Below the pieces are notes generated by a model. The model made no database searches and was not told the DNA's origin. It saw nothing but the letters and a program-made list of their open reading frames with translations. Shown here piece by piece: positions 1 through 60,423 of a stretch of DNA of 64,000 nucleotides. A program made the position numbers and the translations under genes. Source of the stretch: Tribonema minus (Eukaryota; Sar; Xanthophyceae; Tribonematales; Tribonemataceae); contig JAFCMP010000235.1 in assembly GCA_017506865.1 (NCBI GenBank), positions 372,001 to 436,000 of the forward strand. The letters run 5' to 3'. Position 1 is the first letter of the stretch. Each line of letters starts with the position of its first letter.

Positions 1-680
1 AGCCTGCGTTTCGACGCTCACGCCCGGTTCCGGCGACGCCACACCGGTGAGTCGAATGTGATCAGTGCCAGCAACACTCTATGCCATAACTACATAATGT
101 ACGTGTGTACGCCCGGTGAGAGCTGTTGCGCTTGACATAGCAGCAGCAGCAGCAGCAGCACACGGCTCTGGCATGCACGGCGGCGGCCTGTGTCGCAACA
201 ATGCCACCCGGTTTCAGCGACGCCACAACGGAGAGTCGGATGTGTTCAGTGCCGACACTCGATGCGTGATTAGTGCCAGCACTCTATGCCAGAACTACAA
301 ATGTATGTGTACGCCCGATGAGCGTTGTTGCGCTGGACGTGACAGCAGCAGCAGCAGCAGCATACGGCGCTGGCGCGACGGCGGCGGCCTGCGTCGCGAC
401 GCTCCCGCCCAGTTCAAGCGCCATCGCGGTGAGTTACATGTGATAAGTGCCAACAACAGTCTATGCCATAATTACAAAATGTACGTGTACGTCCGATGAG
501 CGCTGTTGCGCTCGACATAACAGCAGCAGCAGCAGCACACGGCGCTGACGCGCACGGCGGCAGCCTGCGTTGCGACGCTCCCGCCCGGTTCAAGTGAGGC
601 GAGACAGACGTCATTAGTGCCAACAGTATGCCAGAACGAACTGTATGCGCAAGCCGGAATGAGCGCTGTTGCGCTTGACG
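1..680 (+). repeat. Tandem repeat of about 165-200 bp carrying an exon-like 3' end and donor
   Basis: Four diverged units fill the left edge. Each has a GTTGCGCT(T/G)GAC segment, a CAG-type alanine run, a GCCTGCGT..CGACGCTC segment and then a 5' splice-like site. The splice-like positions are near 47 (GTGAGT), 231 (mutated to GAGAGT), 429 (GTGAGT) and 594 (GTGAGG). Read on the plus strand the unit encodes an Ala-rich segment (VALDVTAAAAAAYGAG). One unit may be a true exon of the VPS13-like gene; I cannot tell which. The shape matches the exon-edge duplications seen elsewhere in the window. Confidence 0.7.
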
Positions 681-1030
681 CAACAGGCACTCTCACACCG
701 CCGTCTTGTCCTTCCCGCATCAGCCGCGCCTTGTATCCGGAGCTGCCTCCGCGGCGCCTGCGGCGCCACAGCGCTGACGGCACCAAAGCCTTCACGGCGC
801 GATTCTGCACCGCTACCCCACGCTCTAAATTATGCTATCTTGCTATGACCCAGTGTGCAGTCACACCGGCCCAGCCGTGAGCGCGGCCTCTCCGCCATAG
901 CCCGCCGCCGCTGCCGCTGTCGCCGCACTCGCGCTGGCGCACGCAGCAGCCCCGCACACGTGCTACACATACCCACCTACCCTTTGCCTCACTCACACCA
1001 AAAGCAACATGTCCTGCCTTCCTGCTGCAG

Positions 1031-1990
1031 TCTCGGCCCCCCGCCACCCTCGAAGTGGTCACCTGGGGTGACTTATTTGGCGGCCGCAGCGGCGGCAGCG
1101 GCGACAGCGGCGGCGGCAGCGGCGGCGCCATGTGGGTGCGCTCCGCCGTGGTGCGGCTACGGCCGCTCGACGTCAGCGCTGACGGCGCGCTGCTGCTGGC
1201 GCTGGGACGGTTCTACGGAAGGGTCTCCGGAAACTTCGACGGCGCAGACGTGAGTGACTCTATATAGAAAATGCTACAACTCAGGTCATCAGGCCTCAGG
1301 GGTGTTGGGAACCGGTATTGCAGCAGGGGGAGGGTGTCTTGGTTGCAAGAAAGCAGACTTGGAATGTGCATGCCTTTCAATGCACAGCGCAAAGCCAACA
1401 AGTCGGCTGCCGCTGCTGCCGTGCAGTGGCGCGCGCCCCTCTCATTGGCTGTGCCGCTGCCGCCGATCACTTTCATGCTCGTTAACAGAGAATTGTAACT
1501 CGATTGTGACTTGCGATGCAGGCCAGTTGCAATGCATACATCCTCACCATGCTCGGACAAGGTCTCACCCGTGTATCGATCTCTCCGCCGCGCAGCCCGC
1601 CGCCGCCTTCGAGGACGCCGCCGCCGCCGCCGCGCCGCAGTGCGTGGATCCCTTCGCGGCGCTGCAGCTGACGCCTGCCGCCGCGCAGCGCGTGCCTGTC
1701 TCCGCTGAGGCGCCGTCGGGCAAAGTGTACGTGGAAGCGCTTGACATCTCGCCGCTGCGCCTGCGCGTCAGCTTCTCGCTGAGCGCCGCCCCCGCCGCCG
1801 CCCCCGCCGCCCCCGCCGCCGCCGCCGCCGCCGCTTCGGAAGCGGCGCCGCTGCCAGATGGGGGGGCATCGCTGGGCGCAGCAGGGGGGCAGCGCCTGCT
1901 GCAGGGAGAAGAGCAAGGCCCCCACGCAGAGGGTCTGCAGGAGCTCGCGCGCGCCGCCGGCGCCGCCGCCGTGCCGGCCGGCGACGCCCC

Positions 1991-2053
<63 letters not shown>

Positions 2054-5000
2054 GCTCATGCAGCTGCTGCGCGGTGTCGGCGCGACGGTCGCGGGCGTGG
2101 AGGGCGCGCCGCTGCGGCTGCGGCCGCTGGCGCTGCGCGACGTGCTTGTCGGCGGGCCCGCGGCACTGGGCGACGCGCTGGCGGCGCACTACGCGCGCGC
2201 GGCGGCGCGCCAGGCGTACCGCGTCCTCGGCTCTGCGGAGGTGCTGGGGAACCCCGTCGGGCTCGCGGTGGGCCTCGTCTGCGGGGTGAGCCAAGTATAT
2301 ATTGAAAGATGCCAGTAATTGGTTCTGAGCAGTTGCGTGCTACAGCTGGCAATGCGTATCTAGCTCCGCGGAGGTGCTGGGGAACCCTGTCAGGCTCGCG
2401 GTGGGGCTCGTCTGCGGGTGAGCCAAGGCTCAGTTGCAGTACTAGTTATCTTGAAAACGACACCAGTAGCCAGAAACGACACCAGTAGCCAGTGATCGTA
2501 AACTGGTTTGAACATAGCGTTGTATGCCATGTGACCCCTTAGCTGAAATGGTGACGCGCCTCTCATGCTGGCGGCACTGTCGCAGGTGTGTGTACTGGCC
2601 GCTGGTCGGCATGTAGCGGCGCTCAGCACGGGCCGTCCTGTCCGGGGTGTAGCCAGTGATCGTGAACTGCTTTGAACACAGCGTTGTACGCCATGCGACC
2701 TTCTTCGAACTCCCTCAAATGGTGACGCGCCCCTCATGCGCTGTCGCAGGTGCGCGAGCTCGTGTACCGGCCGCTGGTTGGCTTGCAGCGACGCTCAGCG
2801 CGGGCTGTCGTGTTCGGCCTGCGCAGCGGCGCGGCGGCGCTGCTGGGCAGCATTGTGGCGGGGTCGGCAAACGTCGGCGGCGCCATCGCCGGCAGTCTCG
2901 CGAACGGTCTCGCAGCGTCGGGTGTGGTTGCGCTGAGGTGCGCGCACGTTGTGATGTTCCCATGTTCGGTTACAACGCAGCGCTGCAAGTAGCTCGCTGT
3001 GCATGGGTGGGCAGTGTTGTCGCGGAGATTGACCTGGCGGCGTCGGGTGTGGTCGCGCTGAGGTGCGTTTGCACCACATCATTGTGAACGAACATGGCGT
3101 TGCCATGTTCGTTCACAACACAGCGCTGTGATTCTACGACCGGCTATGATGCGGCGCTGTAAGCAGCTCACCACGCGTGGGTGGCCACCATTGTTGCTGT
3201 GAGTGACCACCATGCATGCAAAGCACGGCTTGTCGCATCACAAGTGCTGCGAATGGAGGGGAAATCAATGTTGCGCCGACCGCCAGTGTCAGGGGTGCTA
3301 CCGCCGGCAGCCTTGCATGTGACTCTCCAGCAAATCGCCTGTCGTGCTGTTTCTCAGGCCCTGTTGGAACATGGGCTCGTGTTCTCATTGAGGCTGCCTA
3401 TTGCACTCAGGGAAGCCTCAACATGAACACGCGAACACGCATCCGCTTTCATGGATTTTAGAGATGTTGGTTCCTGAGATGTTGGCCAACACGACTTGGA
3501 AGGTGTCGGCAACACGACTGGAAAATAACCTTTCCCTAAACAGCAGGATGCCATGCCAGTTGCGACAACCGTTTTTGGCTCCTGTGCTGGCCCATATTGC
3601 CAGAAGTATTGGCTGGATCTCAAAATCATCAAAGTATGCAGCACCCGCCGCGCTATCTGCAACAAGATACGCGCTGCTGAGCTCACTACTCCTTTCAGAT
3701 CACGCATCCAGATTTTTAAACTTTATGTTAAAAGACTGCCTGTTGCAGTGACAGGCCTTCAATCAAACCAGCATCACATTTGGGGGCCTCAATCAACGCC
3801 AACATTCCATACCCCCCCCCCCCGCTGTGTCCTCAGTCTCCCGGATGGTACCGTCCTGTACCCCACCGGCTTCCTAACGGGCGGCCTGCTTGCCGCAATG
3901 GGCCTAGCGGCAGACCCAAGTGCGGGGCTGCGGGGCCGCCGCGGCCTATTTTTCGGGGCCCCGGGGGCTCTAGGGGGGTGCCTCAAGGCAGCGCTCGGCA
4001 TTGTGCTGCGGCCGTCGTACGGCGGCCTGGTGACTGCGGCGTCGGTGAGAAGGGGGCCTGTGCCCCCCCCCCTTTATGTGTGCTTTGTCGCGCCCTGCGA
4101 TGTTGTAGCTGCGGCGCTTGGTACTCAAACATTGTTGGGCGTGGTAGTGTGTGTGCGTGGCCGCGGCTGTGCTGCCTCGCACGCATGGGGCTCGCACTGT
4201 GGATGCCGATGCGAAGATATACCTTCACGGAGTACACGTGTGGGTTGCCTCGGCTAGTTGAGGTTGTATATTGCGCGCCAGTGGCGGCCATGACGGCACT
4301 CGTACGGCAGCCTGGTGACGGCAGCGTCGGTTACACAGAGGGGCTCGACGCAGTGCCCCCTGCATGTGCAGTGTGTCGCGCAAGTGTTGAGCCGCCATCC
4401 AACATTGCAGTCGACGGTCATCGATCTACGCGCCTGTAACCCACCATGAAGCGCGCCTGAAACAGGCGTCAACGTCAAGCCGAGAGTGATCGCCGTCAAT
4501 CACAGACTTGCTCATCACGCCTACCACTGAAAGTTCTGCCATTACATGCAGTACCAGATTGACACTCAAAATAGGTACTTTTAAAGTTGATATAGAAGTA
4601 TGATCATCCGCGTGTGCACCTCTCGATCATCCACTGCCACTGCTGCTGACATGCCGGTGCCGGCTTGACCGTGCGTGCCTCGTGGAGCAGGTCTGCAGAG
4701 CGCTGGGCGAGTACGCAAACCCTAGGCTAGGGCGCGTGGACAGAGCGCTGCTGCGACGGATCCATCGCCCACGACGGCACCTCAGTCCGCTGCAGCCCCT
4801 TGCTCAAGACGCGGTGAGTCGCCATTTGAAGTGCTGCGAGTCATTTCGACTTTCGTGTATCCTTTAGTCTCATCGTGATCGGGCGTGTGAACGTTGCACA
4901 GTCAGGACGAGTACGAGTACTTTTGAGGAGTAAGGAGTAGGAGTACTACTCGTTTTATGACAAGGAGTAGTACTCTTTTACTCGTTTAAGTTTATTTCCT

Positions 5001-8238: not shown

Positions 8239-11200
8239 ATGCGTACCGCTGCCGTCGCCCTGACTGTCGGACTCGGTGCCGTCAACGCCTTCGTGCCATC
8301 ATCGTCGTTCACTGGCTCTGTTCAGGTACGCACACACGAAGCGTTGGACATGCACAACTCGCGTACATGCAGCACCTGCGCTGAACGCGAGCACGGCAGC
8401 GCTTGTTGCTTCGACATTGTCGTGTGAATTCCTGTGAGCCCTTTGCTCGAGGTCTGGTCGGAGCATACAGCTCTTTGCAAGCGTGCTGTCATACGGTTTC
8501 TGCATCCCGCAGAGATGGTCGAATGCACCTCTGTTTTTTGCCCTGGCGCTTGAAGCTGCGAAGCTTGCAATGAGCTGTTTTCGACAATCGACAGCGGACT
8601 GGCATGCAATGCGCATCATGTGTATGGTTGGTCCGGAAGAGCATTGGTCATATGTACTCGGCTAGTCAAGTCGAGGATATGCTGCCTTGCATATTGTCGC
8701 TGCCCTGCTCTGTTGTGTGCATTGTGTGATGCAACACTTTGCTTACTGTGTGTCAGCAGATACGCTCGGTGCGCGCGCGTGGCGGTGCGACCATGAACTA
8801 TGCCTTCGAGAAGGAGAACCCTTTCATGGAGGAGCTCAAGGTGAATGCAACAATTTATACTCTAATACTTTCAACGAAGTGCACAGCCTCTCAGTTATTC
8901 AAGTTATCAACACTGGCCACAGATTGAGTGACAAAACAGAGATTTGCAGAAGTCGTGAAAGATTGTGACGACAAGTTCCACATGTTGAACATCACTATAA
9001 GATCAGCTATCACATGCACACGGCACCCGAGGAGACACTGATGAGACAGTCCCCAAAATAAACGGTGCAACCAAGAATGTATACATCATCTCATTTTACG
9101 CTTAAAGACTGCGTACCGCGCAGCACTACAATGATTGACAGTTGCGCCATGCGCAAGCTGGCTGTTGTAACCTTGATGAAAACGAATCAAAAGATCGTAG
9201 AGCTCTAGGTGACAAGGGATGGTTAGCCGCAAGTGCCTTCCACCAATAACCGTGGTCGCCGCTGCTGCAGCAACTGGCCACGAGTAATGTTTGCTACTGT
9301 GGCTGGATCAGATGGACACTTTGCAATGGCCCCGCTCACTCCTGCTACGCGAACTCAAGTCACGGTGAGCGTCGAATCCCATCGAAGCCAAGGCTGCCGC
9401 ACTTGTAAAGCTCTCCAACAAGCGCACCGCCAGCGCCGCAATGTGGCTAGGGAACTGCGGTCGCTCGATGAGTGACCCGCATTGCGGGGTGGTTTCACCA
9501 AGAGCGCCCTGACCTCTGCACCATATGCGGCGCCTGCGCACTTGGCAGCAGCCTATCGGCCCCTTTGTATCACACACACCTCTGCAGGCTCCAGCGCACG
9601 TGATGCACTTGCTGCAATGCATGGAGCTAATGTGGGTCGCCAGCGCTGGGGTGATGGAATGGAATGCATGCCTCTGGGGAGGCAGACCTCCTTGCGTCGG
9701 CACCGGAGCTCGGCGCTGTGTGGCTTGGACATTAATGGTCATGCCTGCTGCAAACGCAGTCCATGTACATTAAGGCCGCCGATCCCGTCCCTAACCCTAA
9801 CCCTCTTCATACCATCAATCTGCAGGAACGCGGCGTTGTACCAACCCAAAACTTCAATCCATCATCTTTGTATGCGGGACGACTGCACTGCGCGCAGCGA
9901 CAGGCCACCGCCAAGAAGCTCAGGTCGTTAAATGCGTGACGACTGCAGCCCCCCCCCCTTGCCCTAACTTCAATCCTCATTGCGCGCGGCGACAGGCCAC
10001 CACCAATAAGATCTCGGGGCGCGGGCGCGGTCTTTGTACGCCGGGCCGCTCCCCTAAACCCCCAATCCTCAGCCTGTCACACCATCAATCTGCATGCGGT
10101 ATCAGCCCATGACTCCGATCTCATGATGCGCGTAATTGTGCTGCACGCGGTAACAGGCCACCGCCAAGAAGATCTCGGGGCGCGGGCGCGGCATCCTGGC
10201 GTCCGACGAGTCCAACGCCACCACGGGCAAGCGCCTCGCGACCATCGACCTCGTGAGTACGAGTCACGAGTCTGAGTCACTGAGTGGCAGTGCACAGCGC
10301 GCATGGCTGTTTTGTTTGCGAGTACAGCGAAAGGTCGTGTGCGGACGCGTGCCGCTGCTCACCGCGGCTTGCTCGAAGAGTTGATTGATGGCATTCTGCC
10401 CGCGAGCCGTAAGGGTTGCTGTCAGACGGGCAGAGGTGCTGCTGACGGATGTTCATTGTTCAGTCTTGTTGAAGTATGCGATGCATGCTGCGTCGATTCA
10501 TACAGCGCGCGGCTGCAGGTGGCGCCGCGGTGCCACCCTGGCGATGCGTTGAACGTGCGCTTGTTGACTGCAGGACTTGAAGTGAGAATTGGGGATGTTG
10601 CAGCGCCGAAGCAGGTCCATGTCTCAAGCCGCCTCACCTCAGCGCTGACACATATCATCTGCACATCCCGCCCTTCGCTCTGTTACACAGGCCAACACGG
10701 AGGACAACAGGCGCGACTGGCGTGAGGTACGTCCATGGTAGCGCTCAGTTTTAATTAGTTGAACTTGTTGTTGGGCTCTTGTGCGTCATGCCGTGTGTGG
10801 CGTATGGTGGCAGCGGTACCAGTTTTGGATTGGCAACGTTAAGCCGGGTGATGCTGGAGTAACGCGACTTTCAACGTATGTGGTGTCCAGCCAGCGAGAT
10901 GCGGCCTGGCTCTGAGAGCGGAGGATGGGTCATTGTACCTGCCACGGCATGTGTGCGGATGTCTTTTTTGGTGCGACACATCTAAAACGCATTTTCCCTT
11001 TTCGGTGTGTTCGCGTCGGAAACCACTCAAGCAGATGATGTGGCGACTGCTTTGTTAAGTGCTCTACTACTTCTGTAGTTCCACATTAGATGCGCAACCT
11101 CATTTACGTCGGACCGATGCAGTTTCTGCAAGTGCAAGTGGGACGGTCCCATTGGCGCGAGCGAGACTTCCTATAAAACCCTCACGTGCAAATGTCAGCG

Positions 11201-23018: not shown

Positions 23019-23283
23019 GGCTAAGAGGCCGTCTGCGATCGCTGCTGTGGGGTTGTGAGTAGCGTCTGCAATCGTAATGAGCCAATAACGCCATTTGATG
23101 TTTGATGTGTTTGACGTTTGATGGGTTTGATGTGGTGGTGCTTTGACTTGACGTGTTTATTCTGCCGCCACGACGGTTACGGATGGATGAGTGGGAGGTA
23201 GCGTCAGGTCAGCCTACAGCAAGCACACAGGGAGTTTTGCATGTTGTCAGCAGCAGCAACAACAACAGCTCCCTCCACCTCCA

Positions 23284-23368
23284 TGCAGAGGCACCACTTT
23301 GGGCCCATTCTCTCCTGCCGACTGTTGTGCCTTCATGGCGGAGGATGGAGTGAAGGTGCGGGTAGCGC

Positions 23369-31408: not shown

Positions 31409-34400
31409 ATGGCGGCAGACGACATCGAGCAGCAGCAGCAGCAGCAGCAGCAGCCCGTGAGGGTTGCCTCGCGCAAGCGCGCATGGTCACTGTTGCTGGC
31501 CAGCGCTGCGGTCACTGGCTTGTGCCTGAGATGCTTGTCGGCTAGCAGTGCAACAGAGCCAGGCGCACTCGAAGCACAGCACAGGCGGCTGGATCCAATG
31601 CAGCCCGGATTGTCCGAGACGGCCGCAGGTGCGTGTTCACCCCACGACTGCCGTATCATGATCGTTGCGTACTGATCAAAGGCGATGAGCAGACATTCGC
31701 GCACCTGGCCGCCCGTCCATGTTGGTGGCGATCTTCACCTTTGCGTTGGCGGTATCCAGAGATCCAGGTGTGCCCGCTGGCCTAGCCTACTTGTGACTCA
31801 TGGTTGTAAGGCAATCGCACCGCATCCCTGCAGGGCCTTGTGCCGACCGCTACTTAGCAATTACCGGACACGTGATGCTGCCCTTATCACTGACACACTA
31901 CGACATGCATTACGATCAACCGCGCAGCGCGTGTGGGCCAGTTTGCAGCCTCAACTGCCACATAGCAGTAACCTGCAGCGCACGCAGATTCCTGACTGCG
32001 CGTTGCAGTTTCAGCATGTTGACGCGCTGCAATAGTGCAACTCACTTTCAACCGCATATACCTGCTGGTGCTTGCTGTGCTGCAGATGCCTCTCTCCTCC
32101 AAGCAGCATCGCTGGATGTAAGCAATGTGAGTGCCGAATTATGTTCATGCGGTAGCATGCTGCGACAATTATCTGTGGCATATGCGACGCGCTGCACATT
32201 CTCAACATAAAAATGAGTCCAAGTCATACGCAGCCCACATGCACGCCTCAGCAACGGGGCGCGACACGGCACGTCCCCATGTACAGTTACTACTTCAATT
32301 CTACATGCAGGTTAAGCAGTCGCCTCTACATGCGCTGCGGGCAGTCACGCTTGCAGTGCGCATCAGAGGGATCAGATCATTCGACACATGCACATGCACC
32401 ATTCGTCTGACTGTAGTACAAGCCTGACCATCGCATATTCCTGCCGACATGTTCCGTGTGCGCCGCAGGGTGATGAACCGCTGTTGCGCAGCGATGGCTC
32501 CAAGCCCAGGGAACTGAGCTATAGAGCCCCCATCAAGTTCGGCGTGCACACGGAGGAGGACATTGACGTTTTGGAGAGGCAGATTCATGCCAACATACCC
32601 ATGGAGCTGCTCTATGACAGCATCTACCCCGGAGAGGGGTCACTAGGTGCGCGGTCAGCGGCGATTCTGCATTGCTGGATCAAGAAATTGCCTGGTCCCT
32701 AGAGCGCATGCCGCAATGCAGGCGTCATCGTGAAAAGCGGTCTGCCAGTTGCAGCGCGGGGTAAACGCCGCTAGCGCCACGAATATGCCGTGTGAAATTA
32801 ACACCCACGGTGAAGGGGCGGGGTCCATACTCACACTTGAGCCGGTGGTTGCTCTAACAAACAGAGCAGACATGCCGGTCCACAGGATAAGGTATGTGCT
32901 GCCCTGCGCTATGTACCTACCCACCCATGAGGTGCGGGTGTGTGGTGCAGATGTGTGCACCAAACTGCGTCTCTGGAGTCCACGCAGCAGCGAACACCAA
33001 CATCACTTGTTGGTAGCAATCACCTTGTCGTTGCCAAATGAGAAGCGAGTGATGAATTGACCACTGAGAGCCCTAGCCTAAAGTTGTTGTCACTTGTACT
33101 CGGCAGAGTAATTCATGCCGTAGGAGCGCACATGTGTCTCTGCCAAGTGAAGTAGCATTGCGACTGTTGCCTGAAACATGAACGCAAACAGAGGCTTGCG
33201 TACTCAGTTGAGCTGCTGCACAGGTGGTGTTGATGAGCAGTGCTGCAGGTGCAAGGGACTGCAGCCTGGCATATAACCCAGCAAATAACACTTTGGCTGG
33301 ACACAGTGCATGCAGGCACGTCCATATCAGATGGTGACATAGATGGATGGTTTTGTCAGGCGCTGCTTCTGGGCACTAAGGCAATGGCTGCATGATGTTG
33401 GCGACCATGTCATTTTGCAGCATGCAAGTGCAGAAGCGTATACAAGCGTGAGACCGCAAACCGCGCCGCCACGCATGGGCCGCAAGTGCTCTGCCAACAG
33501 AAGTGCGCGCTGCTGCCGCCTGTCTCACTGCAATCATCGCACCGTCTGTTCTCAGCACGATTCAAAGTTGAAGTTGAGCATGGCCTGAGCAGTGCTACGC
33601 ATGGGGCAGCAGTTGGGAGGACGCGCAGGATTACTGCATGCAGAAGCACGACGCTGCTGCCACCTGTCACATTGCGATGATGGCGCCATTGTAAGCAGAA
33701 TCACATTTTTAGCGTGGCCTGAGCAGTGCTGTCGCGTGCTGCTGCTGCTGCCCCTGCCCCCCACACAGACTACAAGTACACGGTCAAGAACGCGCTGGAC
33801 CGCAAGAAGCAGGTGTGTACTTCAAACACACGCGCTAAGTGATGCCCAACAATGATATGCCTTGAAGAGGCTGTGGAAGTATGTTGAAGTAGCCCACGCG
33901 TACATGTTTAAAAACCTTGCAGATGGCAAAGACGCTGCGCCAACCTGTGCCCCCATTAGCACGCCTACTGCTGATGCTCACCCGCATCCTTTCCCCCTTG
34001 ACGCGCGCCCTTCAAGGTTTTGTCCTTATCATCGAGCTGCGCTCGCTTGATGCTGATCTCACCCTACCCTATTTCTCCCCCCTTTTCCGCAGGTTGACGT
34101 TGTAATCCAGCTGCGCTCGCACGACTACCGCTGATGCTCAACTATATCTCATTATACCCTACGTGATTCTGATATCTACCCATAGCCCCCCCCCCCCCAC
34201 GCAGGTCATCCTCGTCATCCAGCTGCGCTTGCACGACTACCGCTGATGCTCCGCTTTTGCTCCCGATACCCTACGCAATGCTGATACCTACCCAGTTCCC
34301 CCCCCCCCCGCCTCCGCCCCCCCCTGCAGGTCGTCCTCGTCATCCAGCTGCGCTCGCACGACTACCGCTCCCTTCAGGCGGTCGGCGAGGGCCGCTACGA

Positions 34401-37247
34401 CAAGCAGCTCAACGCCTTCATCGACGAGTGGAAGGCGGACGGCAACCGCCGCCTCGGCATCCGCCCCATGCACGAGTTCAACGGCGACTGGTACGAGTGG
34501 GGCACGTACCGCGGGGGGTCCAACTCCAAGGCCGCGTTCAAGCGCGCGTACACGCACGTCTCGCGCCTCTTCCGGAAGCGCGGCGCGAACGCCGTCATGC
34601 AGGTGCGTCACAATTGAAGCTACTTATCTCTCGCCTCAAGCGGCCGCGGCGGCGCCGCCGATCGCCCCCCCTGATCTGTTCATGGCACTTTGAAGTGCAC
34701 TGCAGTGCTTGCTGACTATGAGCTTGTGCGGGGTGAGAGGTACCTGGGCTCCAGAGGCAACTTCACAATGCGCGAGTACCGGGTGTCAGGTGTGGCGTTA
34801 GCGGCGGGAATTGATAGCTGCATGTACCGCTGCTTGTAGCATGTGTGCTGAGTATCCCTGAGACGTGCCGTCTCTCATCCCCTCTCCATCTGCTCTTTAC
34901 TGTCCTGCGCAGCTGATGCTTGCGTCAACAACTTGTGCCATGAGTTATTGCCCCTGACCTCCCCCCCCCGCCCCCCCCTCTGCGTGCACGCATTGTGCAC
35001 CGTTGCCCTTGCCCATTTCCCCTCTGCAGCTGTCGTACAACTGTGTCAACCCCAACGACGACCAGACAAGCTTCAAGGAGTGGTACCCTGGAGCGGAGCA
35101 CGTGGACATGGTCCTCTGCAGCGCGTGAGTCACTGTCCACAACACTCAGTCATGACTGCTTGTTGTGTTGCTGTGCAGTGCTGTGCAAAAGTTGTGTCAG
35201 CATTATGACAATGTACTTCTGCTGGTGCGCGATGACCATTCCTGAGTAGTGGCTGCTTGTCTTGATGTCTGCGGGTTCCATGTAAGCCGGCTCTGCAGTC
35301 AGACTGGTTGTGTGCATGCGCCCCGCGTGGCTCAAGCGAAGAGAGAGGCTGTGCAACATTCATCAACCGGTTTGAAAGTGGGCCCGTCTGCAGTTGCACC
35401 GTTATCGTGTGCCAGACCTTTTTGCAGGCTGCTCTGCGGGTGCTCTCGCAACCGAGAAGCAATGCATCAACTGGTGACATCCCGCCTCCCTGCTACTTCA
35501 ACTTTATTCTTATCATATCAGCCACCCATGCGATACCCGCCCTACGGGGGTGCTCTGGTGACTTTTTCGAGCAGCCATTTCGTCGACTACCTGCCTGCAA
35601 CTTCAACTTACACTTCACTCACATCGCACCCCCCTGCCCCCCCCCCCCCGCCCCCCCGCGCCCCCGCAGCTACAACAGGGCCGGCATCGACAGCGACCAC
35701 CAGAAGTGGGAGACCTTCGAGCAGGTCTTCGGCTGGGGCTACAAGCAGATGGCGGCGCTGCCGGGGCGCAAGCGCCTCGGCGTCGCCGAGATGGGCACAA
35801 CGTCGTGGGGCGGACACAGCAAGGCGCAGTGGATACGCGACGCATTCAAGGCGCTCGTCAACCAGTACACGCGCGTGGAGGAGGGGTGAGTGAGCGCGCG
35901 ACACGAAGGGGGGGCGGGGTTGTCGGGGGAATGTGCGTCAGTAGCTCGCACGTGCGCGCGCTGGGGGTGGGAGAGGGGGGGGGGGGGGGGGGGGGTTCAG
36001 GAGGAGGTGTTGCGCGTTACAGTAGCATGGAGGCGCTCAACCAGTACACGCGCGTGGAGGAGGGTGAGTGAGGGCGCGTTGCGCGCGCGAGGGGGTGGTG
36101 GGGGGGAGGGGGTGGGGGGGGTTCAGGGGGTGTGCTGCGTGTCACAGTAGCGTGGAGCGGACATGTGACACCTATTGCTCATGAGCAATCCCGACCACAC
36201 AGATGCAGTGCCATTAGGTACTCCCGTTGGCATTTGGATTCCATCCAGGTCAGCTCGCACACATGTCTCTGACACCTTTGTTACGCGCTCGCAGACAAAG
36301 CGATTCCTCAAATTTTCTTGACGACCGCTTGCCAACAAGTAGCTAGTCAGCTGACGCTTGCCTTGCATGCCTCCCTTTCTGCCCACGCGTGATGCCTCCA
36401 TCCTAGCCGACCGCTTGCCATCAAGTAGCAGCTCAGCTGACACATGGCTTGAACCCCCCCCCCCTTTCTCCCCCCGCGCGCGCAGCTTCTGGCTGCTGCA
36501 GAACAAGGACGGGTCCGGCGACTGGAACCTCAACACGCGCAGCGAAGTCGCCGCGTTCGGCCAGAGCATGCGCAAGTACGAGTACGCAGCCGACGGCGTG
36601 AAGGGCAAGGGCGGCGGCGGCGGCGGACACGGTACGCAGTAACTCTAGCGCTAAGCCCTAGCCCTTGTTAGCGCGGGCCTGCGCCTCTGACCTCAGTGCA
36701 CACACAGGGCCACACGTGCCGTTCGCTGTAGTGACCGCCGCGCGCGCACGATTGTGTGGTTGACGTACATGCAGTTTCAGGGTGAGATGGAAAGCGCTTG
36801 CTGAGAGTACGGCTGAAGCTGCTGTGCGTCGCGCCTCGTGCCGAAACACTAATGGTGCGCAGGTCGTATTGTGCACGCGTACCGCAGGCATATTCTAGAC
36901 CTCACCGCGTGCAAGCTTCGACCCTGATCATTCGCCAGCACTGACAGCGCCTACGTCACACACTCCTCTCAAGCGCAGCAGCGTTCTCCAATAGCACACA
37001 CTTTGCAGTGCATTATACCATGCATCCATATATGCGAAATCCAGTTTGCCCTCTCTTGAACGCTGCCGTGCCAATTGCCGCAGGCGCCAAGCCGCACCAC
37101 AAGAAGCGCCGCCGCCGCGGCGGCAAGGGCCACAAGGGCAGGGGCAAGCGCCGCCACAAGCGCCGCGGCGGCGGGCGCAAAAAGCACGGGGGGCACAAGA
37201 AGCACGGGCACACGCGCAGCCTCGAGGAGCCTGAGGCAGTGCTCTAA
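31409..37247 (+). CDS. Membrane-anchored GH26 family protein A with basic tail
   Basis: GH26 enzymes are mainly endo-beta-1,4-mannanases. Exons: 31409-31628, 32469-32646, 33769-33812, 34330-34602, 35030-35124, 35670-35885, 36486-36631, 37084-37247. Phases agree from exon 2 on. The exon 1 donor (phase 1) and exon 2 acceptor (phase 0) disagree, so a small exon or other site is missed there. The N-terminus has a CAG-encoded Gln run and a hydrophobic anchor (WSLLLASAAVTGLCLRC), a type II membrane arrangement. IKFGVHTEEDI starts the barrel. RPMHEFNGDWYEWG carries the acid/base Glu, and KRLGVAEMGTTSWGG the likely nucleophile Glu. After a WLLQNKDGSGDWNLNTRSEV segment comes a ~54-residue Arg/Lys/His/Gly tail. 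Paralogue B lies convergent at 54.7-60.4 kb. Activity and substrate are inferred only. Confidence 0.87.
33445..33735 (+). repeat. Two-copy ~145-bp tandem repeat before GH26-A exon 3
   Basis: GCTGCTGCC(G/A)CCTGTC(T/A)CA followed by ATCG(C)(A/T)... and TGGCCTGAGCAGTGCT recur in order. The second unit ends near the exon 3 acceptor at 33768. Confidence 0.75.
34005..34329 (+). repeat. Three pseudo-copies of the GH26-A exon 4 start
   Basis: Copies begin at 34017, 34093 and 34205 and the true exon at 34330, giving spacings of 76, 112 and 125 bp. Each has an (A)G|GT boundary then sequence like CAGCTGCGCTCGCACGACTA. The copies diverge after that into CGCTGATGCTC, whereas the exon continues CGCTCCCTTCAG. 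The older copy is more diverged. Confidence 0.92.
36030..36067 (+). repeat. Copy of the GH26-A exon 6 donor edge
   Basis: AACCAGTACACGCGCGTGGA with GAGG(G)GTGAGTG recurs 179 bp past the true exon end at 35885. More tandem pieces follow (GGAGG.GTGTTGCG block doubled at 35994 and 36120; GACCGCTTGCCA block at 36324 and 36410). Confidence 0.9.
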
Positions 37248-37385
37248 GCGTTGCTGTGTTCAAGCTCTGAGCGCTGCTGTTAGAGCGCTGAGCGCTGCTG
37301 TTGGAGGTCTGAGCAATGCTGCTTGGGCTCGAGCACTGCTGTCAAAGGTGTGAGCGGTGCTGTTCAGTGCTTTCAACGGCGCTGT
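37248..37385 (+). repeat. About five ~27-bp repeats just after the GH26-A stop
   Basis: Units of the form GCTCTGAGCGCTGCTGTTAG with changes follow the stop directly, so they are probably in the 3' untranslated region. Confidence 0.8.
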
Positions 37386-43484: not shown

Positions 43485-46400
43485 TTAGGTGTTGAAGTTT
43501 GCGGCCTCGCGCTTGAGCTTGCGTACAATGCCGCCCCACTCCCTGGACCCATCATATGCGTAGTCCTCACTCAGCATCATGTCTTGGTACTGTGAGGGGA
43601 GCAGCGGGGGGGGGGGGGGGGGGGAGGGGGGCATGCGGCGCGCATGTGCGTCAAGCGTAATTGGCATTACTAAAATGCCGGGTGTTCAGGCCGTTATGGT
43701 GATCGATCAGCCGCCATTGATGGGCCGAGAGCGTCTGCGCAAGAGCAGGCGCACGACAGACGAGACCTGCACACAGGAAGGCTCAGCATTCAGTTCACAT
43801 CGCAACAGATACGGTAAGCCTGTTGCAGTCATATTTTCATGAACCAGCGCAGCACTAGGAAGTTCAAGTGCTTGGCCCCGATGTGCTGAGTCATTCAATC
43901 ACGTTTCCGCACCTGCGCCTGATTCACCAGTCACATGGGACCGAATTGCACCATCATAAGATATGTCAGTAGCACACACTGTGGATGGCGCTCTCGGCGA
44001 ACAGCACGTCTGCCCTCAGCTACTACTTCAAGTACTTCTGTCTGCAGCAACGCTGATGCAAACCCAGGGCAGGCCCCAGCCCTGTCAAATCACTCAGGTC
44101 TGATGCCATGATGGGGCACGAAAAGCACAACTCAGCCTAACCCCTACCCTAATCCTTACCTCAACCCTAGTAAAGTTAACAAGTCTCCCTACACACACCA
44201 TGGGGTTCTACGACCGGACCATTTTGTAACGCAAGTTTAATTCAGGCAGCGCAGCTCAACATGCGCACGCACCTGAGCCTCGAGATGTTCGTTAGTCGGC
44301 ACCACCAGGTCCTCTAGCGAGTTCGCCATGGCGAGCGCCTTGACCTGCGGAGGCGGCCGTGGCAGCGCTCGCGGGGTCAGCAAAAATAGTAGCAAAGTGG
44401 CTTCCCAAAGTACGCCGCTTGATACCTCCTCCACAGTAGTACATGCGGCTGGTGTGGTGGGTGGGCTGGGCTGCAGGGCTTGCAGGAGCTAGCACCAGCG
44501 GCCCTCAGGTGATGCCAGCGTGCGTAGCCCCTTCGAGAAAACTTCAAACGTGTGGTGGTGTCTCGGAAGCCCTGGCTGGCGTGCGGAGGAGGGACAGGCA
44601 GCGGCTTGGCGTGCTTGGAGAGCAAGCGGAGTCGGCTGCACGCCACGGCACCAACCACAAGTTACTCGCAGCGGTAAATGGCAATATCTTGTCAGGCTTG
44701 CAGCCTGCGGTGAGCCGTGACCTCGCTCATCAAGGAGGCGATGCTTTACTTAGTTATAAAGCCTTTCTCTCTAGCGTCAGCGCCTGGCGCCCAGTGACTC
44801 CCTCTGCTTATCTCTATGATATCGGGGTTCACGAAGATAGCCACAATCTCCAGTTCAGGGCCCATTATGGTGACCTTGGCCTGCATGAAAACTTTGAGAT
44901 GGAGTCTGCGTGGAGCTGGGTGGCCCTAAGACGGGTCTGTCTGTGGGGAGAGTGTCTTGCAGCTTTGTTTGGTATCCCTGCTAGTGTGTGGGGGACAGTC
45001 GCTTGCGGATGCTTTGTTGGGGGTGATATGGGGGGCCCGGTGAACCACCGTCTCGCCCATCAAGGAGGCGATGCTTTGCTTAGTTATACAGCCTTTGTTT
45101 CTAGCGTCAGCGCCTGGCGCCCAGTAAGTCCCTCTGCTTATCTTTATGATATCGGGGTTCACGTAGATAGCCACAATCTCCAGTTCAGGGCCCATTATGG
45201 TGACCTTGGCCTGCATGAAAACTTTGAGATGGAGTCTGCGTGGAGCTGGGTGGCCCTAAGACGGGTCTGTCTGTGGGGGGAGAGTCTTGTAGCTTTGTTC
45301 AGTATCCCTGCTAGTATGTGGGGGACAGTCGCTTGCGGGTGCTTTGTTGGGGGTGATGTGGGGGGCGGGGTGCGGCGTGCAAGCTTTGCATGCTACACCC
45401 AAGAGTGAAAACAAGGCGACACACCTACAACATGGCATTTCCACAGCCACAAGTGGAATATAATAAAAGTACATGTGCAAGAATACTTGTCCCGTCAATG
45501 TAACAAAGTGCCTTCCCACAGTACGCCGGTTGATACCTCCGCAGTAGTTCTTTGAAGTATGCAGGAATGCTCATGGGGATACGTAAAGTATGGCGTGCTT
45601 CACAATGTGTGTTGGCCCACAGCAGACATCCAGTCCCAAACAGGGAACGCAAGGACAAAGGGAAAGTGAGGCGATACCTGCTGTGACATTTACAATTGCT
45701 TGGGCCGTTGATGTCACGGCGTGCGGTATGCATGTACTTCAAGCATAGTACTTCAACATGGAACTACATGGTCGCGAAAGTGGTCTCACCTGCACCTCGC
45801 AGGCCTGATTTATGTAGAAGGTCACGAAGAATGCCTCCGCGGCGGTGCGGCCGACCGTGTACATGCCGTGGTGCTCCAGCAGCATGGCTGCGCAGAGAAG
45901 CGCGGCGGAGGCTCCAGGGTGAGTCATAGGGTTGCACGCAAACGTGTTCAGGGCGTATTTGGCGACCTGGCATACGTCTTGAGCAAAACTCAGCATGATA
46001 ACGTGCTGCGCAAACGGCGCATTTGTGGGGGATTGTTGTGAGTCTGATCCATTCTGAGCATACAGACCATCACAAAACGGGCACTTGAACTCAGAAATAA
46101 ACTTCAACAATACGCTTCTGTGCAACCCGAAGGGTGAGTGAAAGCAGTGGTTGAGTGCCATGAGAACCAGTGGGCTGCGCAGACCCAGTTTCCAACAAAC
46201 AGACGCCTAACCCTAACCCTGGACCCTAGCCCTAGCCCTAACCTAACCCGAACAGGCGCAGGAACTATGTCAAGAACCACCCAGCAGCACATGCCAGGTA
46301 CTGCACCACAAACACGAGAACTGGTTTTGAGCGCGCGCTCAGACGCCGCATGAAACCGCCACCTCGCGTGCACCGCGACACAGCGACTGCAAGCGCATGC

Positions 46401-52917: not shown

Positions 52918-54696
52918 CGTTTCTCTCTGCCCCGAGCTTTTACTTCCATTTTCAAAAAGGCAACTTCAAGTCAAAGTTGCAGTTCGTGAAACAGCCGCGT
53001 GTGGTGACCAGCGCCCTGCCGTAGGCGCAGTGTAGCGACTACGAGGAGACGCAGAAGGGCTGTACCCTGGAGACGCTCAGAGTTGCTAATGAGTGCGTGC
53101 CCGAAAGCCATGAAGCCCAGCCGTCTGTCGTCACTACAGTCACAGTCGGGAACATTGAATATAGCCGCGGCGGGTGCGTAGCCATGATGCACTTGCGAGC
53201 ACGCAGGGGCACTCGCAAAGCAACTTACTGCTGCAGCTTTTTCATGAAGCGCTTTGCAGACCAAAAGCAGGCATAATCAATGCCAGATCATCCGATCGAC
53301 CTCGAAAACTGCCATACCAGATGTGGCTTTCGGCGTATGTCTGCAAATTGTACGTGGGGTAGCAGTACTGTAGGCATGCTTTTGCACCACGTCAAGCCAG
53401 CAGTCGCTTGACAGGGGTGTCACCCAAGCTGCCTGCCACAATTGAAGCTCCTAACCAGTGGGCGCACATCGAAAGGTGCTAGCAGCTTACATGCACGGTA
53501 AGCTGCTTGTTACATTCATGCTGCCCTAGTGATATTTGAGGCGCACAAGGCTTTATTTTGAATTCAAACTCTTGAAAGTACAGTTGAAGCATACCCGTTT
53601 AGATACTTGTGACGCACAGTACTCCAAGCTGAAGTGAGGCAGACTGAACATTGAGCATTCGCGTAGTTCAAGGGACCAAGTCCTAGTTGCAGTGCAGGAA
53701 GTTCAAGTCCTATGCGGAGCGTCACCGCCGCAGCCCCACCTCTACATACACTGTCACAACAGTGACTTGCTGCAGGTATGAGCACTCCAGGCATGTCCAT
53801 TGTACATCTTGACTGATGCTGGAACAAGCTAGAGCCAGCAACGCTTGCGGCATAAGGAATACCTGCGTGCGCAACACGCAACGCTGCAGGATCTCAGGTA
53901 GAGGTTGAGCATGTGAGTTCAGCTGGACACCTTGCCGCATCTCAGATGAGCGAAGCTGCGCAAGCAGAGCCACAACTAGCTGAGCCACACTGGCTTGCAC
54001 GCTTGGGTGCATCACAACAAGGCAACTGCGAAAAACAGCAGCGCACTTTGGGACGACGCTGAGCACACAGAAACAGAGAGCTTGCAGGCAGAGCTTGGAA
54101 AGCTGAAGTCCCGCCAATGTCGTGCTGTACCACGCGACAACAATAACAACAGTACATTCAAAGAGTGAACGCGGCGCGTGCGCCGCTTCACGATGCATAA
54201 CATGTCGTTGTACGTCATACGGTGACGTGCCAGCCACGCGGCTGTTCCAATAAAAGGACGACGCTCACACGTACTTGTGCCTGGAACAACGCTATACTCA
54301 GGTGCGCGCGGCGGCAGGGGGCCGGCTGGCGCACCGCCGCGCGAAGCGCTTCCGGTGCCGGTCGAGGCACCGCCGCCGGTAATCTATGCATACCGTAAAC
54401 TGCAAAATGGACGAAATAGAGATAAAAAGTGTCGACGGCTAGACTTGCCAGTCACACGCAAAGTGCGGCGCGAATGCGGCGCAGCCCTTGGGCCGCAGTG
54501 CTCAGGCGGGGAGCGCTGAGGACAGGCTGCCGTGCGCCTGCATGACGCACGCTCGGGTTGCTGCTGGCAGCCCGTAGGCGCAGCGGACACCGCGCCGCCG
54601 GCGCCGCTGCAAACGCAGGTCTAGGTTACGTGACACAATCACTACCTATGCGCCGTGACGCCCATGATGAGCGCCAGCACTTGCGCCTGCAGGGCG
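52918..54696. other. Intergenic region
   Basis: 5' flank of the class II aldolase gene and 3' flank of GH26-B. Open frames here lack motifs or splice support. Nothing recognised. Confidence 0.5.
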
Positions 54697-57600
54697 TCAG
54701 TGCTTGGGCCCACCGCCCTTCCCCTTACCCCCCCCCTTCCCCTTGCCCCCCCCCTTGCCTCGCCCCTTGCCGTTGCCCCTCCCCTTCCCCTTCCCTCCGT
54801 CCCCTTTGTGGCCCCCCTTCTTGCCGCCGCCCTTGCCCTCCCCTGGCTTTTTCCCGCCCTTATGTCCCCCCTCCTTCCTCCCTCCGCCATTCTTGCCTCC
54901 GTCCTTCTTACCACCCCCGCCCTTCCCCCCTCCGTCTTTCTTACCCCCGCCCTTTCCCCCCCGGCCCTTCTTACCGCCCCCCTTTTTGCCCCCCGGCTTC
55001 TTGTTGCCCCCCTTGTTTTTCCCGTGCTTCTTGCCGCCCCCCTGATTCGCGCTGCCCCCCCCCCCTTTACCATTCCAGTCCCCCACGCCGTCGGTGGCGA
55101 ACTCAAACTTGCGCATGCCGTCGCCAAAGGCCCACACGTCGCCGTCGGTGTTGAGGTCCCAGTCGCCTTCCTTGTTCTCCAGGAGCCAGTGGCTGCACCG
55201 GCCGTGCAACACAAGGGGCACAAACAAAAGTAATCATGAAACGCTGAGCATCGACATTTGATGGCCGTCTGAGACGCACCAGAGAGTGCATAAGAAGCGC
55301 AACTTCTACCGGAGCTTGCTATGTCAGCAGTCGCCCTCCTTGTTCTCCAGGAGCCAGTGGCTGCGCGAGCCGTGTGCGGCGCATAAGGGCAGAAATGAAA
55401 CGCTGTGCATTGACTGACACGCATTTGATTGCCGTCTGAGGCGCACCAGAGAGCGTAGCAAGCGGGGCGAGTTTGAGTAGCGCGACTTTCTATCACTGTA
55501 GAGCCCAATACGTCACCAAGATTCACAGTCGCCCTCCTTATTGTCCAAGAGCCAGTGGCTGTACGGATCGTGTGTGACACCACACGGGGCACAAATGAAC
55601 CGCCGTGCAGCAACTGACACGCAAGTGATTGCCGTCTGATACGCACCAGAGCGTGCAGCAAGTGGGGCAGTTTTGATAAGAGTGACTTTCTACTAGAGCT
55701 TGCTATGTCACCAAATCTCACAGTCGCCCTCCTTGGTCTCCAGGGGCAAGTGGCTATGCAGCACGAGTGCAACATCTCGGGTAGAAGGTACATGTATGAT
55801 GTGGTCGGGAGAAGCTCAAGTGCAAACCTCAAGTGGAACGTCACCGCCAGAGCCTGCACAGTTCACCTATTACATCTGCCCCAGCACAGCAAGCTGTTGT
55901 GTTGTGGCCTCCACCACCACCAGTCACAAAGTGTCAGTCTCGGTGGTGCTCTGCTCTTCAGCTATGGTGTGGCACATGTTGGTGCCACCAACAACTTCAA
56001 CATTTGACAACGCTCAACCTACCGCTCCTGCACGTGTGGGTACCTACACACGAGCTGGTGGAACGCATCCATGAACCACGCTGGCACGCCGCCACAGCAG
56101 TCTGCCGAGTGTACTCTTTATGAACGCTCACTTATGTAGTCTAGGGTGCGAAATTGCCCAGCGAGTGGTACCAGAGTTCAGAGCCGAACACTCAAACTTC
56201 AACACCTCACAACGCTCACCCCCCATGGCACTTACCACTCCTGCACGCGCGTGGACTTGTACACGAGCTGATCAAACGCGTCGATAATCCATGCTGGCAT
56301 GTCACCGCGCTAGGCTGTCGAGTCCACCAGAAGTAGAGCAGCATACTGACATCTTCAACACCTGACGACGCCCCACTCACCACTCCTGCACGCGCGTGTA
56401 CTTGTACACGAGCCGAACACACGCGCAACTGACCTACGCCGGCACGTCACCGACCTAGTCTGTCGAGTTTGCCACAATTAGAGCAGAATACTGACAACTT
56501 CAACGCCCCTTTCTGTCACTCACCACTCCTGCACGCGCGTGTACTTGTACACGAGCTGATTGAAAGCATCACTGATCCACGCCGGCTTGTCACCCCCCCA
56601 ATCCGTGGAGCCAGTCTCCCCCAGCCCCAGCGGTTTGTTGCCGGGAATGCTGGCCATGCGGTCGTAGCCACCCCCAAAGACTTCATCGAAGCTCTCCCAG
56701 CCGTGGCCCTCGAGGCCGGACCGGTTGTAGCTGCAGGGGAGGACGTGGGGGGGAGGAGGGGGGGGGGGGGGGGGGGGGGGGCATGGCTTAGGGTTATGCG
56801 GGGTCAGCAGTGTGTGCTTGTTTAGTGTCTGCAACGCTTGTCCAATGCTTGTGCACGATGGATGTGGGAGGTGCACACCGCGGTTCAGGCTGAGCGGAGT
56901 GTGTGGAAGTGATGAGACATGGACATTATGCATATGTGTACATGTACCAAAGACACACGCACTTCACCCCGGCGACAAAGCCGGACAACTGCAAAGTGAG
57001 TGTACGCAGTCCCAGGCCACCATTTTTCTGAACTCCACTTGAAGTACACCATCCCACAGATCAGGTTGCAATTGCGTCACTGTCATATGCAGTGGCGTCA
57101 ATATGGCAGCGCCCAACACGAACAGCATCCATTACTGATGTCGCCATGCATGCGCAGCAGTTGAGCACGGTTCCTCAGGCGCAAGCACAAAGCACATCTC
57201 TTGCAACACCATGGTCGTCACAGTCCATGCATGCGGAATGAGGCAAGCCATCAAGAAAGCGGGTTAAAAAGCTCTTGTCTGCTACTTCGGGCGGGCAGGC
57301 CCTCTTGCTGAAGGCAGGGTACTCTAACCCTCTAGCCCTTCTACATGGAGAGATGACTGGCTCAGCCACAACAAGGCAAAACGTGCGCTGTTTCTGAATT
57401 CACGCGCTGCAGTCCACCACGTCGTCGCCGGGCAATCTAACCCTAAGCTAGCCCTTCTACATGGAGAGATGGCATGGCTCAGCTATGACAAGGCAAAAAG
57501 GGCATAGTATGCTAAACTCACGCGCTGCAGAGGATGATGTCCACCACGTCGTCGCCGGGGTACCAGTCGGCGAACGGCGAGCCGTCGTTCTGAGCGCTGT

Positions 57601-60423
57601 CGCAGTTGTACGCCAGCTGCAGTGGCGGCGACGGTCATGGGGGCATGTCATAAGTTTGACTCACAATGGTGAGTGAATGATGACGCGTTGAATGGTGCTG
57701 TCGCAGTTGTACGACAGCTGCAGCGGCGTCGACGGTCATGGGGGCATGTCGAAACGGCGAGTGTTTAGCGAAGCGTTGATTGACGTTAGTCAGCTGGTGA
57801 TGCTCAAGCGTCGACTGTGCGTGACACGGGACTGTCGTTGACAAGTGTGTGTGTGCGCGGAAAAAAGAGCAAAGCTGTGGTCGTCGGCACTTCTTGCATG
57901 GCCTTTTGAATGCCGAGTTTCATGCAAAGCTTGCCGAGGGTTATATGACACATACATAGCCGTTGTGGTTGCCAACATATATTCGCCTGGCGACTTGCAT
58001 TTTTCTCAACACCCTCGTACGTACAACTGTGCCGTGAGCAAGCGTCAGAAAGCAGTGTGCGGTCCAAATCCATGCGCGGCAACGTCAAGTCATTCGAACA
58101 GCTACCTGTTCAGCTACTTGCAATGCATGCCACACTGCCTATGAGCTGCATGCACCAATGGCTGCTAAACTCAGTGTGCACGCCTTGCAGCCCCACAAAT
58201 CATCCGCACAGCAAGCGTACAGTACGGCGCGAGAGCACGTGAAGCACCACACCTGTCGCTGATGCATGCTGACATCTCGACCCAACCAGCTTGCCCTAAC
58301 CCTAGACTAACCCCAACCCTGCTTCCGTGCACATAGGTACCTGCATCTTCACGTTTGCCCCGCGGCGCTTGAAGACGCCCGCCACGTGCTGGAACGCGCG
58401 CTTGAAGTTGTCCTTGCTGTTGCCGCCGCCGCGGAACGTTCCCCACGGGTACCAGTCGCCGTTGAACTCGTGCATGGGGCGAATGGAGAGTCGCCTGTTG
58501 CCATCGTCCTTCCACGCGTCGATGAACTGGTTGAGTGACGCGTCGTAGCGGCCGTCGCCGATCTCCTGCAGGTTCGTGTAGTCGTACGTGTCGAACTGCA
58601 CCACGAGCACGACGTCATCGACCTTGTCCAGCGCGGGCTTCACGGTGTTCCAGTAGTCTGCGCGGAGGGTTAGGGTTAGGGCTTGGGGTAAGGGTTACAC
58701 TTAGGAAGCAATTAGCATTTATCGCAAGGGTGTCAACTTTGCAGGCATGGAAGCTTTTCAAGTGAGGGCCACTCTACGGCTAGCGTACTCTCACATTGAG
58801 GGACACTCTACAGCTAGCGTACTCGCAAGACTGTAGGTTTTGTTGCAGCCTCTGGGTGTATGCAAACATGCAGGCGTATGGTGGAGGTTTCCATCTGTGT
58901 ACTTGGCACTGCAGCAACCATGATCCTGCGTCAGGCAGCGAGAAGGAACAGCGCTGACCATGTCGGATATACATCATGCGCCAAGTGACACACAACTCTA
59001 AAGCGGGCAATCTAGGACCATGTGAAGTCCTGCAGTTCAAAAACAGGCAAACGGATGCGATTGGCGCCAAGCCCGACTTCAAGCACGATCGGCAGCCGAC
59101 GAGCTGCACATGCGAGGCATGACTGGAGGGCATCGCGTGTCACACACGGTGGCGAGTGGGCAGGAGTCTACTATGCACTGTAGCACGCCATGCGCTGGTC
59201 GAACGCGTGTGATCAGAGTGAGGGGGTATTGGGCGTTGGCAGTGTGCGGCGTCCCACATCTCCTTCCCCTGTGGCAGCTCAGAGGCCCGCAATCGACCGC
59301 CGCGGCTGCCAGCATGTGATCGGCAGACTAGACTGCAGGCGAGAGTGTGACACTGATCCGCGCACCGTAGACGGATGCAATGCAGCAGCGGCGGCGCATG
59401 AGTTCCATTGGAATCGTGAACTGCATTTTAGGGTTTCCGCCCCCCAAACGGAAGTGAGCAAGTACATACATGCACGCAGCGGCGGCTGTCCTCGTACTGC
59501 GCCCTGTGACGGCGGCACGCGGCGGCGGCGTTCACGCCGACAGCGCCCTGTTCAGTACGCGTGGAGGTTTGAATGTGTGTGACAGCGCCTGACAGCGCCT
59601 GCACATCACGACCAGGACCGAACCTCGACGCGTACTGAACAAGGCGCTGTCCGCGCGAACGCCGCCGCCGCGTGCCGCCGTCACAGGGCGCAGTTCAAGG
59701 ACAGCCGCTGCTTCGTGCATGTACTTGCGCATTTCCGTATGGAGAACGGAAACCCCTAAATTTTGGTGCGTGTCTTGTACGGAACTCATGCGCCGCCGCT
59801 GCCGCATCGCGTTCGCCGCAGTGCGGATATGTGTCGCACCCCCGCCCGCAGTCTGCGGGCCATGCACTGGCTGGGAAGCACGCCAAGCGAAAGGCTGTGA
59901 CAAGCTCACATTGTACTCACCTATGCCTCCACCGCCGTCAAGTTGGGCGTCCTGGAACAGCAGTAATAGGGAAATGTCCGCGCCTGCAGGCATACGCACC
60001 AGACAGAAAAAAAGAGTTGAGTTTCGTTTGTGGTGCATTTACCCTCTGATATATATTCCAAAGAGACGGGCTATGTTCGGTATCTTGCATTCTGTTGCTT
60101 GCCGGGAACAGGATGCGTTTAGCAAACAGGTGGGACGGGCATGCGCATCTTGGCTGACCTATTTGAGCCTCTCTGTCGGCAAGCGGCTTTTTGTCATGAA
60201 CGCCGAACTTGATGGGGCGCCTCGAAAACTTCAGCTGCCGATGTTGATGTTGCAACGGCGCAGACGGCACCCCATCTCGCCTCCACAACGCTCCAGCGAT
60301 GCACGTCAAAACCACAGTTGACAACGCCAATGCGCGCCATCGCCGTCGTCTAAGAGGTGCAGCATGCTCGACGTGGTAGCCGGGCACAGCCGCCGCACTG
60401 CACATCATGCCTACACAGCACAT
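54697..60423 (-). CDS. Membrane-anchored GH26 family protein B, Lys/Gly-rich tail, 480 aa
   Basis: Paralogue of the GH26 protein at 31.4 kb and the clearer model. Exons 60423-60159, 59983-59921, 58657-58341, 57616-57522, 56730-56524 and 55192-54697 join in phase (1,1,0,2,2). After a basic cluster (LRRRRW) a hydrophobic anchor (ALALSTVVLTCIAGALW) gives type II topology. PIKFGVHDKKPLADRE opens the barrel, RPMHEFNGDWYPWG carries acid/base Glu173, and KPLGLGETGSTDWGG likely nucleophile Glu285. The WLLENKEGDWDLNTDGDVWA segment precedes residues 357-480, almost wholly Gly and Lys with some Asp, His and Asn. Such a polycationic tail could bind anionic wall polysaccharide or mineral; this is inference. 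Compared with A it lacks the introns at KKQ|VVLV and before the tail, and has an extra one at AQIG. Mannanase activity is not shown. Confidence 0.92.
55331..55780 (-). repeat. Three copies of the GH26-B exon 6 start
   Basis: TCGCC(C/T)TCCTTGTTCTCCAG with GAGCCAGTGGCTG starts at 55163 in the exon and recurs at 55331, 55529 and 55723 (spacings 168, 198, 194 bp), with acceptor flank. Each copy drags a long intron tail (CACGCA.(T/G)TGATTGCCGTCTGA, GCACCAGAG). Confidence 0.93.
56020..56460 (-). repeat. Three copies of the GH26-B exon 5 donor edge
   Basis: CCACTCCTGCACGCGCGTGT with ACTTGTACACGAGC(T/C)G is at the true exon end (56521 on) and at about 56383, 56238 and 56025; spacings 143, 145 and 213 bp. 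Divergence grows with distance from the exon. Confidence 0.93.
57331..57760 (-). repeat. Copies of GH26-B exon 4 on both sides
   Basis: The donor edge (CACGCGCTGCAG..GTCCACCACGTCGTCGCCGG) is copied at 57400-57432, with a shared CTAGCCCTTCTACATGGAGA flank ~112 bp apart. The acceptor edge (CGCAGTTGTACG(C/A)CAGCTGC) is copied at 57702, 101 bp from the original. Confidence 0.9.
58667..58697 (+). repeat. Telomere-like tract forming the GH26-B exon 3 acceptor tract
   Basis: GGGTTAGGGTTAGGGCTTGG on the plus strand; on the coding strand the CCCTAA units are the pyrimidine-rich tract directly before the CGCAG acceptor of exon 3. Confidence 0.85.
59310..59870. repeat. Large inverted repeat in GH26-B intron 2
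   Basis: Arms of about 250 bp (59310-59575 and 59623-59870) pair imperfectly; landmarks are GCGGCGGCGCATGAGTTCC, GGGTTTCCG, and CGGCGGCACGCGGCGGCGGC against its complement. The loop is about 47 bp with a GACAGCGCCT doublet. Confidence 0.88.

Follow-up and report, generated by a model that had tools for sequence, protein, structure and literature searches.

Do exon ends in Tribonema minus, a xanthophyte, become copied into the adjacent introns together with their splice sites, and is the exon edge a preferred place for such duplications or a bystander of them? The question comes from a stretch of 64,000 nucleotides (positions 372001-436000 of contig C235, hereafter the window) in the 158.18 Mb assembly, where a sequence-only reading had claimed decayed copies beside at least 15 exon boundaries in five or more genes. 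Our analysis confirms that copies of exon edges in adjacent introns are real in this genome.

Local repeats in the window

Local repeats in the window are mostly in direct orientation, with 108 direct versus 16 inverted pairs in a self-comparison (distance below 1.5 kb, E up to 10). Among the 16 positions singled out by the earlier reading, 12 fall inside a repeat copy, and 36030, 3030 and 2353 lie within 1, 4 and 10 bp of one, respectively. For 34017 the nearest BLAST repeat is 71 bp away, and a targeted alignment places an older copy (34022-34046) at 5 bp from it. By the two approaches together, all 16 positions are on or near local direct repeats. Positions 9893, 14833, 28260, 40790, 47391, 47762, 50520 and 52120 are genuine repeats which we counted without assigning them to a gene or an exon edge. 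Seven edges in three genes were confirmed by homology or by NCBI proteins, i.e. donor 2285 and acceptor 2750 of a VPS13-like gene, donor 35885 of GH26 gene 1, and 57616, 57522, 56524 and 55192 of GH26 gene 2. Two further edges are probable, and of the proposed five or more genes three are confirmed. The window also has a 330-bp direct duplication at 44722-45372, 94% identical, within an open frame of 322 codons.

Edge copies in the VPS13-like and GH26 genes

One intron of the VPS13-like gene (donor 2285, acceptor 2750) is crossed by alignments of the VPS13A (E 4e-11) and VPS13C (E 4e-10) chains; neither Pfam nor the protein database has a match for this piece. The features are as follows.

2230-2285, plus strand: exon end, donor GTGAGC at 2286, with the VPS13A/C chains aligned across the intron
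2363-2427, plus strand: intronic copy of the 2285 exon end including the donor, 92% over 66 nt against 2230-2295; exon part 48/52, counted with the donor taken as 2281, four bases short of 2285
2590-2637, plus strand: copy of the exon start at acceptor 2750, 41/48
3034-3062, plus strand: copy of the exon end at putative donor 2937, 26/29

The whole unit at acceptor 2750 (2485-2645 against 2649-2817) aligns at 76% over 176 nt. Donor 2937 is putative, being placed from the end of the VPS13 similarity and a GT.

The junctions of the two GH26 genes were set by NCBI proteins, P0002 for gene 1 and P0001 for gene 2 on the minus strand, and a T. minus NCBI protein matches gene 2 at 99%, with 96% of the query covered. 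By these junctions, gene 2 has copies at four of its edges and gene 1 at one. Acceptor 34330 of gene 1, with three copies, is a probable edge: the annotated protein is partial and begins there. The GH26 family is large in the whole genome, with 117 match rows for P0001.

34022-34046, plus strand: oldest copy of the gene 1 exon start at 34330, 22/25
34102-34132, plus strand: second copy of this exon start, 30/31
34205-34244, plus strand: nearest copy of this exon start, acceptor AG intact, 38/40
34330-34602, plus strand: gene 1 exon, acceptor probable, donor as in P0002
35670-35885, plus strand: gene 1 exon whose donor edge is duplicated, junctions as in P0002
36037-36064, plus strand: copy of the gene 1 exon end at 35885 with GTGAGTG, 28/28; 90% over 52 nt
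57522-57616, minus strand: gene 2 exon with acceptor and donor edges both duplicated, junctions as in P0001
57697-57750, minus strand: copy of the acceptor edge of this exon, 94% over 54 nt against 57596-57649
57314-57432, minus strand: copy of the donor edge of this exon with downstream intron, 78% over 133 columns against 57427-57559; exon-only score 42 versus a control maximum of 35
56524-56730, minus strand: gene 2 exon with donor edge copied three times, junctions as in P0001
56023-56416, minus strand: the exon end at 56524 in three copies, whose edges lie at 56381, 56236 and 56023, all with GT; 35/36, 50/59 and 45/57
55328-55753, minus strand: the exon start at 55192 in three copies, whose edges lie at 55360, 55558 and 55753, all with AG; 32/33, 31/36 and 31/36
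55099-55192, minus strand: final annotated exon of gene 2, C-terminus MRKFEF of P0001 at 55099
55193-56523, minus strand: gene 2 intron of 1331 bp, 82% covered by the donor-edge and acceptor-edge families

The proposal that an exon end and its splice site can be duplicated in tandem repeatedly at one edge is supported. Edge-linked families are found in four of the six NCBI-supported GH26 introns. Both P0001 and P0002 splice at the exon's own sites and bypass the copies, and the suggestion that the copies seed alternative exons finds no support here. Nor, in this one assembly, does a link to the gain of new introns.

Exon edges elsewhere in the genome

The same arrangement is found at exon edges far from the window. 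From a search for the kinesin family we took 12 loci with several exon rows (64.8 kb), in which the local pairs are 142 direct versus one inverted. We scored 26 junctions, retained 20 with a score of at least 5 and discarded six, two more exon pairs having no junction; the 20 introns have flanking exons that are contiguous in the profile. Using exon-only queries of 60 nt and reversed or reverse-complemented controls, 14 of the 40 kinesin edges (6 donors and 8 acceptors) are matched in the adjacent intron by a copy that outscores every one of the 80 controls. When the six GH26 introns and three dynein introns are added to the 20 kinesin introns, 20 of the 58 edges (ten donors and ten acceptors) score above all 116 controls; the GH26 introns come from the region of the earlier reading, the repeats near the dynein introns had been noticed before inclusion, and the kinesin-only figures exclude the GH26 introns. 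Among kinase and dynein edges placed more roughly, at the ends of domain matches, 5 of 25 exceed the control maximum. Roughly a fifth to a third of the tested T. minus exon edges thus carry decayed copies, including the splice site, in the adjacent intron. As an illustrative locus outside the enrichment tests, a helicase exon end on contig C157 occurs three times in succession. Loci L054-L056, chosen for overlapping Pfam rows, enter the tallies of copy recovery, spacers and splice sites and are excluded from the enrichment tests.

Many loci are affected, as would be expected of a mobile element or introner, or of an assembly artefact, yet we regard both as hardly credible. A three-copy array of 366 bp matches only itself and 74 bp in a paralogous exon region across 158 Mb, every family derives from its own exon, and the copies differ by 0-20%, unlike duplicated reads.

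Two side observations concern sequence composition and the contigs. Relative to the base-composition expectation, two octamers are over-represented in the 20 kinesin introns (L057-L068, 17.7 kb), ACTTCAAC 71-fold and TTGAAGTT 65-fold; TTAGGG and CCCTAA exceed it 4-fold and 3-fold. The contig pairs C90/C179, C223/C144 and C359/C467 (L009, L011, L021, L032 and L050-L053) are intron-poor, differing in this from the intron-rich C235; their partners are near-identical and their open frames long, for kinases, SNF2-like and GH26 proteins. C90 and C179 are collinear at ~95%; we compared them as an allele-like pair for polymorphic duplications and excluded them as intron-poor. Such pairs could represent haplotypes left uncollapsed, a different organism or a large insertion.

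Structure and decay of the copies

The duplicated units are local direct repeats holding the exon end, the splice site and the following intron, and their copies decay free of coding constraint. Spacers are homologous (z>3) in 23 of the 34 adjacent unit pairs, in 12 families. Between exon and copy the divergence is 0.097 for the exon part and 0.183 for the spacer (from the 24 of 34 pairs in which the spacer is homologous); between copies it is 0.153 and 0.174, respectively (19 of 38 pairs). Comparing the exons with 29 copies, we counted 40/452, 28/450 and 67/448 differences at the three codon positions (~1.4:1:2.4), which is near the 1:1:2 expected when the exon alone is constrained. Given the homology of the intron parts, the codon pattern and the similar decay, the copies appear to be tandem duplicates of whole units that decay neutrally next to an exon under constraint. 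In single cases the copies, too, had seemed likely to be under coding constraint, which the codon-position count did not bear out. RNA-mediated copying of exon ends alone, considered because several copies appeared to end right behind the splice site, was rejected as the spacers are homologous and older.

Older copies tend to sit farther from the exon, as the sequence-only reading had noted. Of 13 families, some in the window and some outside it, 10 have a nearest copy more similar to the exon than the farthest one, two show the reverse, and one is a tie (sign test, P=0.019).

The proposed creation of pseudo-splice sites is supported, and they are many: GT or AG is intact in 40 of the 48 edge-reaching copies (23/30 donors and 17/18 acceptors), where two of the eight exceptions come from alignments shifted by one base and the VPS13-like donor was again placed four bases short. 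Such intact sites, together with a kinesin copy identical to its exon at 66 of 66 positions, could mean that selection maintains the copies as alternative exon ends or as decoy splice sites. We consider this very unlikely: neutral decay to such divergence would leave about as many splice dinucleotides intact, the 53 synonymous and 66 non-synonymous codon changes show no synonymous excess beyond the exon's own, and the annotated GH26 proteins ignore the copies.

In some kinesin loci young-looking exon parts stand beside far older spacers, which plain duplication followed by decay fails to explain. The copy just mentioned, at 4895-4960 of L057 (gene-oriented), has a spacer matching at 112 of 144 positions (22% diverged). 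The exon part and the spacer match at 55/58 and 45/61 positions in L061, and at 67/72 and 68/104 in L062. For these mismatches short-tract gene conversion from the exon, refreshing old copies so that their exon-derived parts look younger than the spacers, is the obvious candidate. Copies were detected through the exon part only in 37 cases, the intron part only in 11 and both in 14 (a tally in which the donor edges of the window are off by one), which also fits gene conversion. However, the copies were mostly sought through their exon part, biasing the data toward such a picture, and the pooled divergence between copies is nearly equal for the two parts; as a general explanation we hold gene conversion to be improbable.

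A likely preference for the exon edge

The exon edge takes part in duplications about twice as often as expected, an excess that is likely rather than proven. Under uniform local tandem duplication the edges would be mere bystanders, with the constrained exon copy keeping the repeats recognisable longer. The detection bias behind this explanation is real, an advantage of 1.2-1.3 for edge families in simulation, 26.7% of the intron-interior positions also lie in repeats, and 10 of the 32 families are purely intronic. Across all 29 introns, though, 22 of the 32 families are edge-linked, versus 33.7% of the 249 duplications detected in a simulation that models both exon constraint and detection (P=5.6e-5). 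With the exons masked, 16 of the 26 families lie within 30 nt of an intron end versus 28% expected (P=4e-4). In the kinesins alone, 16 of the 24 families touch an edge (P=0.001), while uniform placement gives 6.1 and a twofold detection advantage 9.2.

The preference is only likely because it weakens in three cuts of the data: in the kinesins without the richest locus, L057, it is 9/16 (P=0.054); at the stricter margin of 12 nt with exons masked, 10/26 versus 24% (P=0.07); and per position, edges are spanned in 35% of cases (14/40) versus 26.7% for the intron interior, a tally that includes the copies themselves. The claim that repeats overlap exon ends beyond chance therefore stands at about twofold, but L057 carries much of the kinesin signal and the per-position contrast is small. 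We judge uniform duplication a live rival, although a rather unlikely one.

Of the 23.7 kb of intron tested, 33% is covered by edge-linked families, and in two introns the share is 82%, which agrees with the expectation that such copies make introns grow. Introns with edge families are also longer (median 791 versus 558 bp, P=0.018), which is partly expected because longer introns give more room.

How edge copies may accumulate

The explanation we favor, with good confidence, is that tandem duplications of ~75-250 bp are frequent in introns, and that units straddling an exon edge leave decaying copies while the exon copy keeps being spliced. Ordinary duplications of this size would arise often in the introns of T. 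minus. When a unit straddles an exon edge, the exon's own copy would stay in use, and the other copy with its splice site would be pushed into the intron. A duplication across an edge would be cheap as long as the exon's splice site stays in use, and pairing of splice sites over a short exon (exon definition) may let the cell ignore the copies. Through repeated rounds, introns would grow outward from their edges.

More tentatively, we speculate that the exon anchors a ratchet, by which arrays at the edges build up, are seeded anew from the constrained exon and form much of the long introns. Removal of a copy by recombination with the exon might splice decayed sequence into the exon, and such a ratchet against loss could let edge families outlast purely intronic ones, giving the twofold excess and the larger introns.

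Comparison with known systems

Xanthophytes are a sister class of the brown algae. Brown algal introns are long, with an autosomal median of 524 bp in Ectocarpus (PMC12477816). Some T. minus introns are largely built from their own exon ends, and edge arrays offer a source of intron length other than transposons, with readable internal clocks. With an exon end and its splice site present two to six times in succession, they place splice sites in natural competition and so provide an assay of which one the cell picks. Should the edge excess prove genome-wide, intron growth would become directly testable from single assemblies.

The arrays fit the class of local tandem duplications or minisatellites, their copies being direct, local, head-to-tail and inclusive of the spacer. 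Tandem exon duplication and mutually exclusive exons do not describe them, as the copies hold one edge and show a neutral codon pattern. Introners likewise affect the introns of many genes, but they are a single family dispersed across genes, while each family in T. minus is local. In the human interferon-induced gene 6-16, a minisatellite has repeated splice donor sites and, like the T. minus arrays, multiplies the donor at an exon edge; it consists of short uniform units in one gene, whereas T. minus has decayed units of 75-250 bp at many edges.

Single boundary-crossing duplications have already been published, and a literature search, with subscription papers mostly outside its reach, uncovered nothing on exon-edge copying as a pattern across a genome. 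That introns can arise from AGGT segments duplicated in tandem has been reviewed (PMC3443670) and put to a test in flies (PMC2891723). Such a duplication is also local, in tandem and with splice-site sequence, but in that model a proto-splice site within an exon is copied and the stretch between the copies becomes an intron, while the T. minus unit spans an existing edge. The closest case is the potato RdRp gene, where a tandem duplication crosses an intron-exon boundary and carries splice signals, as in T. minus. It was one event that created a new intron (PMC4974935), whereas in T. minus many edges have several copies each and existing introns are lengthened.
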